NCBI GenBank assembly: GCA_945874145.1
Contig: CAMCFN010000007.1
Coordinates: 1-64,000, forward strand
Length of the DNA: 64,000 nucleotides
Direction: 5' to 3'
Origin: Akkermansia muciniphila
GTDB lineage: Bacteria > Verrucomicrobiota > Verrucomicrobiia > Limisphaerales > SXTU01
The notes under the pieces were generated by a model. It did no database searches, was not told the DNA's origin, and worked only from the letters and a program-made list of their open reading frames with translations. Positions within the stretch are counted from its first letter, which is position 1; every line of letters starts with the position of its first letter. A program made the translations under genes and the position numbers. This document shows positions 34,907 to 39,443 of the stretch, piece after piece.

Positions 34907-36607
34907 ATGGCCGAGCCGAAGAAGAAACCGCTTTCCCGCGAGTCCGACGCCCCCGACGAGCCTTCGCTGGCCTCCACCCCGCTCGCCGACCTCCTCCCGC
35001 GCGAGCAGCTCGAACAGCTCTCCACCCTCCAGCTCGTGGACCTCATCACGAGCAAGCTCCCGCCGCGTCACGCCTCCATCTTCGACATGGTCTATCTCCG
35101 CGAGCGCATCGCCGCCGTGGAGGAGATGAACGACCAGGCGCGCAGCGCGCTCGAGAAGATGGACGCCGTCATCGAGAAGCTCCGCTCGCCCGCCTTCCGC
35201 GTCGGCACCTTCCTCGCACCCGTGGACCGCGACAAAGCCCACGTCTGCCTCGGCGGCACGGACTACGTCTGCCGCGTGGACCCGGCCATCCCGGTCGCCA
35301 GCCTGCAAGCCGGCCAGCGCGTCCTCTGCAACGAAGCCTTCGCCGTCGTGCAAGGCCTCGGTTTCGAGCACAACGGCCCCATCGTCCGCGTGGATGAACT
35401 GCTCTCCGACGGCCGCCTCCGCATCGGCCAGGAGGCTGGCGTCACGAACTTCGTCATCCAACGCTCCGCCTTGCTCGCGAAGGAGAAGATGAAGTCCGGC
35501 ATGGAGGTGCGGCTCGATGTGAACCAGCGCGTCGCCCTCGAAATCATCGGCGTCGGCAAACGCGTCGAGCGCTCACTGGAAACCGTCAGCGAACTCCCGT
35601 GGTCGGCCATCGGCGGCCAGGACGAGGCCGTGCGCGCCATCCGTGACGCCATTGAACTGCCCTTCCTCCATCGCGACCTGTTCAAGAAGTTCGAGCACTC
35701 GGTGCCGAAGGGTTTTCTCCTCCACGGCCCGCCCGGCTGCGGCAAAACGCTGCTCGGCAAGGCCACCGCCTACAACCTCCGCCAGCAAATCAAGACCCAG
35801 ACCGGCGTGGACCACCCGGAGTTTTTCCTGCACGTCAAAGGCCCGGAGATTCTCAACATGTGGGTCGGCGAGAGCGAGCGGCAGGTGCGTGACCTCTTCG
35901 CCCAGTGCCGCGAGCGGGCGCGGGACGGCGCGCTGGCGTTCCTGTTCATTGATGAGGCCGAGAGCATCCTCGGCACGCGCCGCGGCGGGCGCTTCAACAG
36001 CATTCTCAGCACACTGGTCCCGATGTTCTGCACCGAGATGGACGGCATCGAGCCGCTGACGAACGTCGTCGTCATCCTCGCCTCGAACCGCGCGGACCTG
36101 ATTGACCCGGCCATCCTGCGGCCCGGGCGCATTGACCGCAAAATCCGCGTCCGCCGTCCCGACAAGGCCGGCGCACAGGCCATCTACGAAATCTACCTGC
36201 GCGACTCCCTCCCGCTCGCCGAGCCGAAGGCCGACCTCGCCCACGCCGTCACCGACGCGCACTTCGCCCGCACGCCGGACAACGAGTTCGCCGAAGTGAA
36301 CTTCCGCAGCGGCCGCCGCGAACTGCTCTGTCGCGGCGACCTCGCCAGCGGCGCAATCATCGCCGCCGTGGTCGAGCGCGCGAAGAGCCTGGCCATCCGC
36401 CGCGCCATCGAGACCAAGGCCAGCGACACGCAGCTCACCCGCGCCGACCTCCTCACCGCCCTCCGCCTCGAACACGACGAGAACGACCTCTTCCCCGCCA
36501 ACGACCTCACCGAAGACTGGCTCAAGCTCACCGACTTCGACCCGGAGAACGTGGTGAAGCTGGGGCCGGTGCGGGCGCGGAAGGGGGAGCGGAGCGGGGT
36601 TGTTTAG
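34907..36607 (+). CDS. AAA+ proteasomal ATPase (Mpa/ARC type)
   Basis: The 566-residue protein has the domain order of the bacterial proteasome-associated ATPase (Mpa in Mycobacterium, ARC elsewhere): an N-terminal coiled coil (about 58-95), tandem OB-like domains (about 96-225), then one AAA+ module with Walker A GPPGCGKT (274-281), pore-loop region LNMWVGESE, Walker B FLFIDEAES (345-353), sensor/Arg-finger region ASNRADLIDPAILRPGRIDRKI and the lid. It should form a hexamer that unfolds tagged proteins. The C-terminus reads ARKGERSGVV, without the GQYL-type tail used by Mpa to dock on the 20S core. The ATG at 34907 is chosen because protein-like sequence starts there. The next gene starts 3 bases after its stop; dop is three genes downstream. 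Confidence 0.85.
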   Translation: MAEPKKKPLSRESDAPDEPSLASTPLADLLPREQLEQLSTLQLVDLITSKLPPRHASIFDMVYLRERIAAVEEMNDQARSALEKMDAVIEKLRSPAFRVGTFLAPVDRDKAHVCLGGTDYVCRVDPAIPVASLQAGQRVLCNEAFAVVQGLGFEHNGPIVRVDELLSDGRLRIGQEAGVTNFVIQRSALLAKEKMKSGMEVRLDVNQRVALEIIGVGKRVERSLETVSELPWSAIGGQDEAVRAIRDAIELPFLHRDLFKKFEHSVPKGFLLHGPPGCGKTLLGKATAYNLRQQIKTQTGVDHPEFFLHVKGPEILNMWVGESERQVRDLFAQCRERARDGALAFLFIDEAESILGTRRGGRFNSILSTLVPMFCTEMDGIEPLTNVVVILASNRADLIDPAILRPGRIDRKIRVRRPDKAGAQAIYEIYLRDSLPLAEPKADLAHAVTDAHFARTPDNEFAEVNFRSGRRELLCRGDLASGAIIAAVVERAKSLAIRRAIETKASDTQLTRADLLTALRLEHDENDLFPANDLTEDWLKLTDFDPENVVKLGPVRARKGERSGVV

Positions 36608-36610
36608 GCA

Positions 36611-37225
36611 ATGGAGACTAATCCTGCATTGAACCAAGACGAGTCGGGGGAAGGGTTTCTGTTCCGCTTCTTGTGTTCTTGTTATGCATGGGTTTTGACC
36701 CCTTGGAGACTTCTACGCTGGCGAACCGGATTTTGGTATTTCGCGCGCCAATCGAGTGCGGCGGGGCTTGAGCAGAAACTTCGCGCCTACATCGAAGCAA
36801 GGGTGTTCATGTGCAAGTCGCAGCTCGGCGAACCCGCATTCCTTTCGTGGTTGAGACAGTCGCGTAGTGGAGTCCGCGCGTTCTGGTTGGCTGACTACAT
36901 GGAGGCAAGAATCCACAATGGCGGGATTGGCCGCCTGCTTCATGAGGCTTACGAGCTAGGGCTGCTGGACGAAGTCGCCCAAGCGTTGGAATTCCTCGAA
37001 GCCAAGAAACTCCAAGTCTTGTTCGCCGAAGCGCGCATGGTCCTTGAGCAACAATTCCGAAATACTTCTGCGCTTCCACCGTGGCATGAGTTCGCAAAGA
37101 CGATGGGACACGGTGTGTTGGACGAGCGGCATGATGGTCTCGCGACGCGTTGCTTCGATGCCTTGCAGGAGCTATCTACGCTGCGAGTCGCCAAGGTCAG
37201 ACAAGCTCCGAACCTCTTTGTTTGA
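36611..37225 (+). CDS. DMP19/DUF4375-like protein, low GC
   Basis: The 204-residue protein has a central segment ADYMEARIHNGGIGRLLHEAYELGLLDEVAQALEFL that resembles the 'NGGF..Y' core of DMP19/DUF4375 proteins, which occur in accessory regions and toxin-related contexts. The N-terminal 40 residues are aromatic and hydrophobic (CSCYAWVLTPWRLLRW) but too charged for a clear membrane anchor. It starts 3 bases after the ATPase stop, yet its base composition is visibly lower in GC than the ATPase and dop, which suggests insertion into an older operon. Function is unknown. The family call rests on one motif and is tentative. Confidence 0.55.
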   Translation: METNPALNQDESGEGFLFRFLCSCYAWVLTPWRLLRWRTGFWYFARQSSAAGLEQKLRAYIEARVFMCKSQLGEPAFLSWLRQSRSGVRAFWLADYMEARIHNGGIGRLLHEAYELGLLDEVAQALEFLEAKKLQVLFAEARMVLEQQFRNTSALPPWHEFAKTMGHGVLDERHDGLATRCFDALQELSTLRVAKVRQAPNLFV

Positions 37226-37279
37226 ACACAAGCCAGCCATCCAATTGACAAGGCCCAACCGCCGCCGCACTTTCACCCC

Positions 37280-37567
37280 ATGCCGACCGTCAGCATCAAC
37301 CTCCCGCCGGACCTGAACTCGCTGGTGGAGCGCAAAGTGACCTCCGGCCAGTTCCACTCGGCGGAGGCGGTGTTGTGCGAGGGACTGCGGCTGCTCCAAG
37401 AGCGCGAGGAACTCGGCAAGCCGGACTTCGAGGTTTCAACGCTGGAGGAACTGGAGGCGAAGCTGCTCGTCGGGCTGGAGCAATTGGAGCGGGGCGAGGG
37501 CATTCCCGGTGACAAGGTGTTCACTGAGTTGAAGGAGCACAGCCGTCGCCGACGCGCTCATGCTTGA
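37280..37567 (+). CDS. ParD-like ribbon-helix-helix antitoxin
   Basis: The 95-residue protein begins VSINLPPDLNSLVERKVTSG and continues QFHSAEAVLCEGLRLLQERE, the strand-helix-helix DNA-binding pattern of ParD/CopG antitoxins, followed by an acidic helical C-terminus that would wrap the toxin. It overlaps the ParE-like gene by 8 bases, the usual antitoxin-first order with translational coupling. It should bind its own promoter and repress the pair. It sits between the DMP19-like gene and dop. Confidence 0.85.
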   Translation: MPTVSINLPPDLNSLVERKVTSGQFHSAEAVLCEGLRLLQEREELGKPDFEVSTLEELEAKLLVGLEQLERGEGIPGDKVFTELKEHSRRRRAHA

Positions 37568-37883
37568 GCTGTTCATCGCCCCGGCCGCGCGTGCGGACCT
37601 GCTTGGCATCTGGGATTCCATCGCGGAGGACAACCCCAACGCCGCTGACCGCTTCCTGTTAGCGAATGAGCAGACTATGACGCAGCTCACACGCCATCCC
37701 GGCTTGGGACGGGAGCGTCGCTTCGCGCGGTTCCGTGGTATTACGCTGCGCTCCTGGAGCGTGAAGGGTTTCCGACACTACCTCGTTTTCTATTTCGCGA
37801 CCCACGACCGCCTCGACGTGGTGCGCGTCGTCCACGGCGCACGGGACTTGGATGCCCTGTTCCGAGAGGAACCGCCCGTGTGA
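37560..37883 (+). CDS. ParE/RelE superfamily toxin
   Basis: The 107-residue protein shows the ParE pattern: an N-terminal strand (LELFIAPAARADLLGIWDSIAEDNPNAADRF), HPGLGRERRFARFRG, then WSVKGFRHYLVFYFATHDRLDVVRVVHGARDLDALF. The conserved Arg before the final strand and the VVHGARD end are typical. ParE toxins inhibit DNA gyrase; RelE relatives cut mRNA. Family features favour ParE, but the target cannot be read from the sequence. It overlaps the antitoxin gene by 8 bases and ends 36 bases before dop, the gap being almost entirely an 11-bp tandem repeat. Confidence 0.85.
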   Translation: MLELFIAPAARADLLGIWDSIAEDNPNAADRFLLANEQTMTQLTRHPGLGRERRFARFRGITLRSWSVKGFRHYLVFYFATHDRLDVVRVVHGARDLDALFREEPPV

Positions 37884-37889
37884 GCGCTT

Positions 37890-37922
37890 TTCCATCTGTG
37901 TTCCATCCGTGTTCCATCTGTG
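37890..37922 (+). repeat. 11-bp tandem triplication covering the dop start codon
   Basis: Three copies of TTCCATCTGTG (the middle one TTCCATCCGTG) occupy 37890-37900, 37901-37911 and 37912-37922. The final GTG of the third copy is the only plausible start codon of dop, so the repeat replaces the normal Shine-Dalgarno region. The reverse strand reads as ACAGATGGAACAC-type repeats, which I recognise as a low-complexity intergenic motif in many environmental bacterial genomes. Confidence 0.85.
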
Positions 37923-39443
37923 GCTAAAGAACCTCCCATCCTCTTCGGCATCGAGACCGAATACGGCATCGCGCGGGACGGCGCGGAGGACTTGGACGTG
38001 GTGGCGGAATCCATCGCCCTTGTCCGCAGCGCGATGGAGCCGGGCGTGCGAATGCGCTGGGATTACGAATCCGAGAACCCGCACCACGACGACCGGGGGT
38101 TCGACGTGCCCGAGCTGCGGCAGGACTTCGACGAGGCGTATTACTTCGAGCAGGACACGCACCGCGAGCTAACCTTCGCCGAAATCAAAAGCGACCTCGC
38201 GCTCGGCAACGGTGCGCGCTTCTACAACGACCACGCCCACCCCGAATACTGCACGCCCGAGTGCTCCACGCTCGCCGAGCTGGTCGCCCACGATCGCGCT
38301 GGCGAACGCGTGGTGATGGCCTGCGCGCAGCGGCTGTCCAAGGCGCGTGGCGCAACGGTGCGGCTCTACAAGAACAACACGGACTTTCGCGGCCACAGCT
38401 ACGGCTGCCACGAGAATTACCTCCTGCCCCGCGCGCTGCCGTGGGAACGGCTGGCGGCGGGCGCGCAGGCGTTCCTCGTCACGCGGCAAATCTTCGCCGG
38501 CGCGGGCAAGTTCGCCATCGAGGCCGAGGACAAGTTCGTCTCGCCGCACTTCCAAATCGCCCAGCGCAGCGACTTCTTCAGCGAGCTGCAAAGCGTGGAC
38601 ACGATGCAGAAGCGCCCGCTCATCAACACCCGCGACGAGCCGCACGCCGACCCGCGCCAGTGGCGGCGCTTCCACGTCATCATCGGCGACGCGAACCTCT
38701 CGCCCTTCGCCACGCGGCTCAAAGTGGGCACCACCGCCCTCGTGCTCGAAGCCATCCTCCGCGACCCCAAGCGCATCTTCCCCCAACTCGCCGACCCGCT
38801 CGCCGCGCTGCCCGCCATCTCGCGCGACTCGCGTTACCGCTGGGAAGTGAAGCTCGCGAACCGCCAGCACTCCACCGCCCTCGCCGTGCAGCGCGACTAT
38901 CTCGCGTCGGTGAAGGAGCTTTGCGACCTGAGCCAGCCGGAGCGCGCTGACTTGGTGGCCGATTGGGAAGCTGTGCTCAACGACCTGGAAGCCGACCCCA
39001 TGCGCTGCCGCGACCGGCTAGACTGGGTCGCCAAGCTCGCGCTCATCCGCGAGTTCCAAGCGGCGCAGAGCCTCGCAGACGATGACCCGTGGCTGCAAAG
39101 CCTCGACCTCGAATACCACCGGCTCGACTTCGAAGAAGGTCTCTACTTTGGCTTGGAGCAGTCCGGCGCGATGCGCGGGGTGCCGTTGGAAGCCGAGGTT
39201 CAGCGCGCGATGTTCGAGCCGCCCGAGACCACGCGCGCGCTCATCCGGGGGAAGCTCATCCAGAAGTTCAGCGCCGCCGTGCTCTCGGCGCAGTGGGACC
39301 ACGTCACGCTCGCGTGTGGCGACGGCGAGTTGAAGGTGTCGCTGCTGGAGATGTTCACGCCGGAGCGCATCGCGTCTGTCGCGCGGGCCATCACCACTTC
39401 GGACTCGCCAGCAGAACTACGCGGGCAGTTGTTTGCCAGGTGA
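37920..39443 (+). CDS. dop: depupylase/deamidase of Pup (Dop/PafA family)
   Basis: The 507-residue protein is clearly of the carboxylate-amine ligase-like Pup-processing family. It has FGIETEYGIARDG at the N-terminus, RWDYESENPHHDDRGFD with a following loop of the kind special to Dop, NGARFYNDHAHPEYCTPE containing the family Asp (D104) and metal-binding residues, LYKNNTDFRGHSYGCHENYL, QRSDFF, NTRDEPHAD, HVIIGDAN and DPMRCRDRLDWVAKL. Residue by residue it is closer to Dop than to the ligase PafA. Dop deamidates the C-terminal Gln of Pup and removes Pup from substrates. Translation must start at GTG 37920, inside a tandem repeat. Mpa/ARC lies upstream, interrupted by three accessory genes. No Pup gene is recognised nearby. 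Confidence 0.9.
   Translation: MAKEPPILFGIETEYGIARDGAEDLDVVAESIALVRSAMEPGVRMRWDYESENPHHDDRGFDVPELRQDFDEAYYFEQDTHRELTFAEIKSDLALGNGARFYNDHAHPEYCTPECSTLAELVAHDRAGERVVMACAQRLSKARGATVRLYKNNTDFRGHSYGCHENYLLPRALPWERLAAGAQAFLVTRQIFAGAGKFAIEAEDKFVSPHFQIAQRSDFFSELQSVDTMQKRPLINTRDEPHADPRQWRRFHVIIGDANLSPFATRLKVGTTALVLEAILRDPKRIFPQLADPLAALPAISRDSRYRWEVKLANRQHSTALAVQRDYLASVKELCDLSQPERADLVADWEAVLNDLEADPMRCRDRLDWVAKLALIREFQAAQSLADDDPWLQSLDLEYHRLDFEEGLYFGLEQSGAMRGVPLEAEVQRAMFEPPETTRALIRGKLIQKFSAAVLSAQWDHVTLACGDGELKVSLLEMFTPERIASVARAITTSDSPAELRGQLFAR

Follow-up and report, generated by a model that had tools for sequence, protein, structure and literature searches.

A proteasomal ATPase and Dop without their partners nearby: a probable fragment of a scattered UBact-proteasome system in a verrucomicrobial genome

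The DNA discussed in this report is positions 1-64000 of contig CAMCFN010000007.1, called C7 below, of a verrucomicrobial genome deposited as Akkermansia muciniphila (GCA_945874145.1; 4.58 Mb in 157 contigs, 82% complete); "the window" means this whole stretch of 64,000 nucleotides. It raises the question of how a proteasomal ATPase and a protein of the Dop type come to be encoded there with no modifier or protease beside them. The first-pass annotation saw no Pup-like gene, PafA, prcA, or prcB in the window; this absence holds for the 64 kb and fails for the genome: the ubiquitin-like modifier UBact and the proteasome beta subunit PrcB are encoded on contig C37, and the alpha subunit PrcA and a PafA-like ligase on contig C5. 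On the sequence comparisons described here, what the window holds is very probably one of the three parts into which a complete, likely functional UBact-proteasome system has been divided; its six genes would once have formed one operon that was later broken and its junctions invaded. The two components in the window are:

34907-36607, plus strand: UBact-type proteasomal ATPase (Mpa/ARC relative), 566 amino acids (aa), with two OB domains, an AAA module, and the tail ...GERSGVV
37920-39443, plus strand: predicted Dop, the UBact deamidase/de-conjugase, 507 aa, with the Dop-loop region present

Both had been given these identities in the first-pass annotation, and closer comparison bears this out. 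The ATPase, which starts at the ATG whose MAEPKKK beginning recurs in relatives, matches Pfam PF00004 (AAA) and both proteasomal-ATPase OB domains, PF17758 and PF16450. Its best PDB match is 5kwa (Proteasome-associated ATPase; E 8.9e-88), and its score with NCBIfam pup_AAA TIGR03689, 410.2 bits, is under the 504.75 cut-off, the equivalog threshold of actinobacterial Mpa/ARC; nothing in the model and PDB scores places it in another AAA clade. Going by its relatedness to Mpa, an N-terminal coil is expected. The second protein scores 491.9 bits with Pup_ligase (PF03136) and carries GIETEYG, the GxExE motif. It is closer to Dop than to PafA in the NCBIfam models (TIGR03688 Dop, 441.5 bits, cut-off 492.3; TIGR03686 PafA, 328.7 bits; both under cut-off) and in the PDB (335-341 bits for Dop chains and about 210 for PafA chains). 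The alignment to Dop 4b0r/5lrt spans the Dop-loop region, which, according to a portion of PMC7947786, distinguishes Dop from PafA. Judged by sequence, the protein is Dop and not PafA, and the model scores of both proteins are far from chance.

The modifier on C37 is a protein of 57 aa that ends in RTGQ and scores 84.4 bits with NF033388 (cut-off 35) and 82.5 bits with PF20513 (cut-off 27.8). It is thus a standard UBact, a named family in Pfam and NCBIfam, and not the unrecognised modifier that had been suggested. It is the one UBact above cut-off in the genome, a second match (11.8 bits) being at noise level. The tail of Pup is GGQ or GGE, and among short open reading frames (ORFs) in the window and the first loci the only one ending in GGQ, GGE, GGN, or GGD was a 32-aa ORF ending in GGD. 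The GGQ/GGE search proposed earlier would miss the modifier because UBact ends in RTGQ.

PrcB is encoded 261 bp from UBact, the gap being spanned by a 94-aa ORF with hydrophobic stretches. After a 40-aa propeptide it has the catalytic triad Thr1, Asp17, and Lys33, as counted along its sequence, in which Thr1 is residue T41 before processing. It matches 2h6j_H in the PDB (E 3.9e-28) and is the only PF00227 match in the genome. Anbu and HslV share the N-terminal-Thr hydrolase fold; unlike these, PrcB favors the actinobacterial beta model (154 bits, compared to at most 26 with HslV models), and its genome has an alpha gene.

That alpha gene escapes standard models. PrcA (246 aa), whose gene precedes that of PafA on C5 and is separated from it by a single 213-aa ORF, has no Pfam match and scores 52.1 bits with TIGR03691, under the 139.05 cut-off. 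It was reached by way of 20 clusters from outside the genus, each of which has an ORF of about 240-290 aa after PrcB and before PafA. A profile made from 14 of these ORFs matched 8 PDB sequences at E <1e-8, all labelled actinobacterial 20S alpha or alpha-and-beta, with values of 4e-11 to 1e-9 for PrcA of the PDB. A tblastn search with the relatives' 20 ORFs located the orthologue on C5, and the profile search agrees. For an orthologue of 93% identity, the AlphaFold model (predicted local distance difference test score, pLDDT, 90) has Mycobacterium 20S chains (alpha or beta) as its best PDB matches and matches Rhodococcus alpha 1q5q_A at E 9.5e-13. K49 of PrcA, invariant in 13 and in 30 sequences, aligns with a Lys of 1q5q_A and on that alignment is taken as the activator-pocket Lys. 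A beta-only proteasome lacking an alpha subunit was considered and is ruled out by the divergent alpha in the relatives' operons and the tblastn match on C5. The second enzyme encoded on C5, the PafA-like ligase (481 aa; PF03136, 349.5 bits), aligns to PafA 4b0t from residue 3 and has no extra Dop-loop segment.

Among relatives the components mostly occur together, and roughly 4 in 10 of the sampled genomes have them. The gene-content survey covered the same 97 genomes for every family; UBact was found in 38, PF00227 in 40, PF03136 in 44, the ATPase OB domain in 41, and the PrcA profile in 43. Every one of the 38 UBact-positive genomes also matches PF00227, PF03136, and PrcA (in G064 by only a 22-residue PrcA piece), and 36 match the ATPase OB domain, the misses being G002 and G096, where Dop is also incomplete. 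Matches in genomes without UBact were obtained for PF00227 (G026 and G085), PF03136 (G006, G026, G040, G057, G062, and G071), PrcA (G006, G026, G040, G057, and G063), and the OB domain (G006, G026, G040, G053, and G071). Two genomes with no UBact match have a single long PF03136 frame each, of 832 aa with weak TPR matches in G071 (L223:3093-5591) and of 906 aa in G062 (L224).

Gene order was read in the best 80 of 193 contig stretches encoding a PrcA relative, from a PrcA-alignment scan of a contig collection (the 80-locus set). Their titles are mostly Verrucomicrobiota, along with one Nitrospinota, one Omnitrophota, two Proteobacteria, one Klebsiella pneumoniae, and one "bacterium"; some of the non-verrucomicrobial ones are taken as mislabelled bins. 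Bins L143, L141, and L145, titled Klebsiella pneumoniae or Proteobacteria, have genes 90-94% identical to the verrucomicrobial PrcA described here, and their titles are probably wrong. Eight loci (L139-L145 and L179; PrcA identity 90-95%) belong to the window's genus; L200, which an 85% identity cut had put inside by way of a 116-residue fragment, has the operon and was counted outside. The comparison of gene order with relatives, called for at the outset, gave a clear picture. In 33 of the 80 loci the order is ATPase-Dop-UBact-PrcB-PrcA-PafA, on one strand and with gaps of no more than 569 bp; in one further locus the ATPase stands at the opposite end of the cluster, 42 have a subset in that order, and 4 have PrcA alone. 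Loci with at least 700 bp before PrcA are informative on its neighbor: all 69 of those outside the genus have PrcB next to PrcA, and none of the 7 inside it does. The idea that a broken cluster is unique to the window's genus is ruled out by 20 of 72 outside loci, in which a gene on the ATPase, Dop, UBact, or PafA side is missing or moved although 3 kb or more of sequence is available. What sets the genus apart is the PrcB-PrcA break alone, and partial break-up of the cluster has also occurred in other lineages. Five outside loci (L208, L209, L215, L217, and L218) have UBact-PrcB-PrcA with no PafA despite at least 3 kb of room.

A system split across the genome, one of the options raised by the first-pass annotation, is what the window's genome has, and the genes lie well inside their contigs: the nearer contig end is about 38 kb from Dop (C7), 18 kb from UBact and 17 kb from PrcB (C37), and 15 kb from PrcA (C5). 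In G010, PrcA and PafA stand about 45 kb apart on one contig. These interior positions and the G010 separation rule out contig breaks as the cause of the split. Downstream of PrcA, G010 also retains 87 bp from the beginning of the PafA gene, at 90% identity and some 45 kb away from the complete gene; this remnant is what the order count scores as PafA in L143. Six genus members, G001, G003, G004, G005, G007, and G010, have kept Dop, UBact, and PrcB side by side. The three are separated in the window's genome and G002, which have in common an additional ORF that lies between the UBact and PrcB genes. The distance from PrcA to PafA is at most about 3 kb in the window's genome, G002, G003, and G007, whereas the two genes are apart in G001, G005, and G010.

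All six reading frames are open in the window's genome. Ratios of nonsynonymous to synonymous substitution rates (dN/dS), calculated with our own Nei-Gojobori script against genus members and leaving out proteins of <70% length, are 0.09-0.18 for the ATPase (5 comparisons), 0.09-0.13 for Dop (8), 0.11-0.17 for PafA (8), 0.07-0.09 for PrcB (7), 0.18-0.31 for PrcA (3; without G001, G004, G005, G006, and G010, whose PrcA was found later), and 0.00-0.21 for UBact (7), the highest UBact value being that against G005, which has an altered tail. The UBact protein is identical to that of G001 (dN 0, dS 0.32). By these ratios the six genes are under purifying selection, and decay is not supported for the window's genome.

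With the presence, identity, conserved residues, co-occurrence, and order of the genes and the purifying selection on them directly observed, the working of the system may be drawn by analogy with pupylation. Dop, encoded in the window, would deamidate the C-terminal Gln of UBact (C37) to Glu, and PafA (C5), using ATP, would join the Glu side chain to lysines of the target. The ATPase ring (window) would capture the UBact tag, unfold the target, and feed it to a 20S core built from PrcA (C5) and PrcB (C37), to be cut there by PrcB with its N-terminal Thr; Dop would also strip UBact from targets. The history suggested by the gene orders is of an ancestral six-gene operon that in the window's genus was broken first between PrcB and PrcA and then, in the window's genome and G002, between Dop and UBact, an order of breaks that we infer, with toxin-antitoxin and other genes entering the broken junctions.

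The window shows such a junction between ATPase and Dop, where, as had been noted, three accessory genes separate the pair:

36611-37225, plus strand: inserted DMP19-like protein, 204 aa, 3 bp past the ATPase (PF14300, 30.3 bits, cut-off 25)
37280-37567, plus strand: inserted ParD-type antitoxin, 95 aa (PF03693, 22.2 bits, cut-off 21)
37560-37883, plus strand: inserted ParE toxin, 107 aa (PF05016, 58.7 bits)
37880-37925, no strand: short tandem repeat just upstream of Dop, with a related stretch before Dop in G001, G005, and G007

All five genes from ATPase to Dop are read in the same direction. Successive gaps measure 3, 54, and 36 bp, and ParD overlaps the following ParE by 8 bp, which is the ParDE arrangement; the antitoxin scores 43.3 bits with TIGR02606 (cut-off 46.2). 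With the DMP19-like gene, tblastn over the relatives' loci matched the window only. The repeat was considered as a recombination site, and its pattern occurs nowhere else in the window. The C-terminal stretch of ParD, GKPDFEVSTLEELEAKLLVGLEQL, recurs slightly altered at the end of other antitoxin-like ORFs by the same junction (L107:4896-5087 and L118:7993-8364; read by eye), one of them joined to a DUF433-like start (also by eye).

Other genus members have other genes at their junctions. In G001 the ATPase is followed by an antitoxin-like ORF (read by eye) and ParE; behind this toxin-antitoxin module the terminal 113-117 bp of the ATPase gene occur once more (L109:3018-3134), and MazEF- and HicAB-like ORFs, read by eye with no model run, precede Dop. 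A contig of G007 begins exactly at a 117-bp ATPase piece adjoining Dop (L123:1-117), and the ATPase frame on another contig has 529 aa, i.e., 566 minus the 37 codons of the piece; from these two features the same ATPase 3'-end duplication as in G001 is inferred for G007. G002 has DUF433 and DUF5615 between PrcA and PafA, G003 has Sel1 and DUF6615 proteins there, G004 has an aspartyl-protease-like ORF between Dop and UBact, and G005 has a DnaJ-domain ORF and another ORF, on the opposite strand, between ATPase and Dop.

Several observations weigh against a complete and functional system in three pieces. The ATPase lacks a C-terminal GQYL or a penultimate Tyr. The C5 ligase scores alike as PafA and as Dop (250.6 and 249.3 bits, both under cut-off; 198.1 and 195.8 bits in the PDB); we call it PafA because the Dop-loop is missing, it has its place after PrcA, and a clear Dop is present besides. 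In G005, of the same genus, the last 12 residues of UBact, including RTGQ, are replaced after residue 45 (L119:4988-5134); a normal tail is found in none of its three frames, and the genome has a single UBact match. G006, also of the genus and about 95% complete, has no match to UBact or PF00227/PrcB and keeps Dop, the ATPase, and cut pieces of PafA and PrcA. In another family, G057 is a wreck, with pieces of ATPase, Dop, and PrcB on its contig C29 and of PrcA and PafA on two others (L219, L220, and L221); in G094, of the same family, the genes are open frames. No component was matched in G008 and G009 (71 and 80% complete). Such losses are what would be expected if scattering were a stage toward loss, with products that no longer cooperate, and the first-pass annotation had listed decay among its options. 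For the window's genome itself this is improbable in view of its six open frames, the retained PrcB catalytic residues, a UBact unchanged from that of G001, and low dN/dS for all six genes; the losses belong to G005, G006, and G057. Finally, given an assembly that is 82% complete, a second intact cluster is conceivable, and none is in the assembled part. That the window's pair would have arisen by recent duplication, or have been acquired as a partial copy while a complete cluster stands elsewhere, gains nothing beyond that incompleteness and is very improbable: the genome has one match each for the ATPase OB domain, UBact, PF00227, and PrcA and two for PF03136 (Dop on C7 and the PafA-like ligase on C5), and the window's ATPase and Dop share 90-96% identity with their counterparts in the genus, G006 being lower for Dop (84%).

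The inserted genes pose a different question, whether they work with the system, either as antitoxins turned over by the UBact-proteasome or as addiction modules keeping the fragments in the population. Toxin-antitoxin-like genes do stand at junctions in the window (ParDE), G001 (antitoxin-like ORF and ParE), and G002 (DUF433/DUF5615), and a portion of the review PMC8165232 lists pupylated toxins and antitoxins of mycobacteria. ParE-family genes are rare in the window's genome (7 matches in 4.58 Mb), so that the chance of one landing in the 1.3-kb gap between ATPase and Dop is about 0.2% by our own arithmetic, which is post hoc and not a test. The modules, however, vary between species, and the short gaps in the compact operons of the 33 loci could not accommodate them, so that they do not count as conserved components. 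The pattern is accounted for by insertion where the site tolerates it, and the ATPase-end duplicate of G001 is something an insertion could leave. A functional tie is on this evidence unlikely, and a broken operon invaded at its junctions remains our preferred account.

The missing ATPase tail motif extends beyond the window. A penultimate Tyr or GQYL occurs in 0 of 21 ATPase tails from the window and genome-survey loci and in 0 of 39 from the 80-locus set. In the Verrucomicrobiota loci read, and in one Nitrospinota locus, the tails end in two small or branched residues (VV, IV, II, TI, or SI); that of L194 is QASSI, and the unrelated tail of L180 is perhaps due to a frameshift. Portions of PMC8755798 and PMC12288473 describe GQYL as the element by which Mpa docks to the 20S core. 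Since the ATPase has no GQYL, its docking must differ from that of Mpa; going by the aligned sequences, it probably uses the same alpha pocket with another key, or other contacts. A wider proposal is more tentative, and we put it at somewhat under even chances: that UBact-type ATPases dock to and open the 20S core without the penultimate-Tyr (HbYX/GQYL) key of actinobacterial Mpa and eukaryotic ATPases, in a distinct coupling mode of a whole branch among the bacterial proteasomes, while the alpha subunit keeps its probable pocket lysine. The modifier tails also deviate from the actinobacterial system: of 66 UBact sequences in the 80-locus set, 49 end in RTGQ and 17 in RTGE, and a second set of 27, which overlaps the first in genomes, has 22 and 4 plus the altered tail of G005.

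The system is of a known kind. Lehmann et al. reportedly described the UBact-proteasome of Verrucomicrobia and other Gram-negative phyla in 2017. A portion of PMC5666114 describes the Gram-negative proteasome branch, including verrucomicrobia, in that year, and one of PMC2588565 had described Pup-PafA-proteasome clusters in verrucomicrobia in 2008, with the statement that the modifier gene is invariably beside the PafA gene. Here it is not, the PF03136 genes being on C7 and C5 and UBact on C37. The likeness to the Gram-negative UBact-proteasome clusters lies in the six families, a modifier ending in G[EQ], two PF03136 paralogues, and alpha and beta 20S subunits; the difference is that the three pieces are unlinked here, whereas sister families have one ordered cluster. 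With the actinobacterial Pup-proteasome (Mpa/ARC, Dop, Pup, PafA, PrcB, and PrcA) it shares the enzyme classes, the Dop-loop region, the PrcB Thr/Asp/Lys, and PrcA K49, and it differs in the RTGQ/RTGE tail, the ATPase without GQYL, a pore loop of NMWVG rather than the NKFVG of 5kwa, and an alpha subunit too divergent for PF00227 in most genomes. The novelties are thus modest, namely, the three-way scattering, the junction insertions, and the ATPase tail without a penultimate Tyr, and that of the scattering is lessened by partial break-ups in other families. Among the papers listed in our literature searches, none dealt with such scattering or with the way the ATPase of UBact systems ends, which is no proof of absence.

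One sampled genome, G049, has a second, different cluster besides its UBact operon, on its contig C193 (L234:7392-8909 and L222:51-8223). It encodes a ThiF/E1-like protein (PF00899, 99.5 bits), a JAB peptidase (PF14464, 25.9 bits), a distant Mpa-like ATPase, a 125-aa ORF with an E2-like HPNV...C stretch (by eye, no model match), and two PF03136 proteins flanking a 66-aa ORF that ends in EGGQ and has no Pfam match; the contig has no PF00227 match. By sequence this resembles a Pup-like pathway combined with E1 and JAB components of the ubiquitin type. No close copy was found in 387 sampled genomes of the phylum, in which 7 matches were at 30-33% identity.

The apparent puzzle of an ATPase-Dop pair without modifier or protease is thus resolved, and it illustrates where puzzles of this kind come from: the standard Pfam model fails to detect the alpha subunit, the GGQ/GGE rule passes over UBact, and the genes lie in three places. 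The ATPase tail offers a testable prediction on the gating of Gram-negative proteasomes. The relatives, for their part, provide a natural series from intact operon through scattered genes to wreck, in which it may be asked whether the proteasome stays under selection after its operon has been broken.

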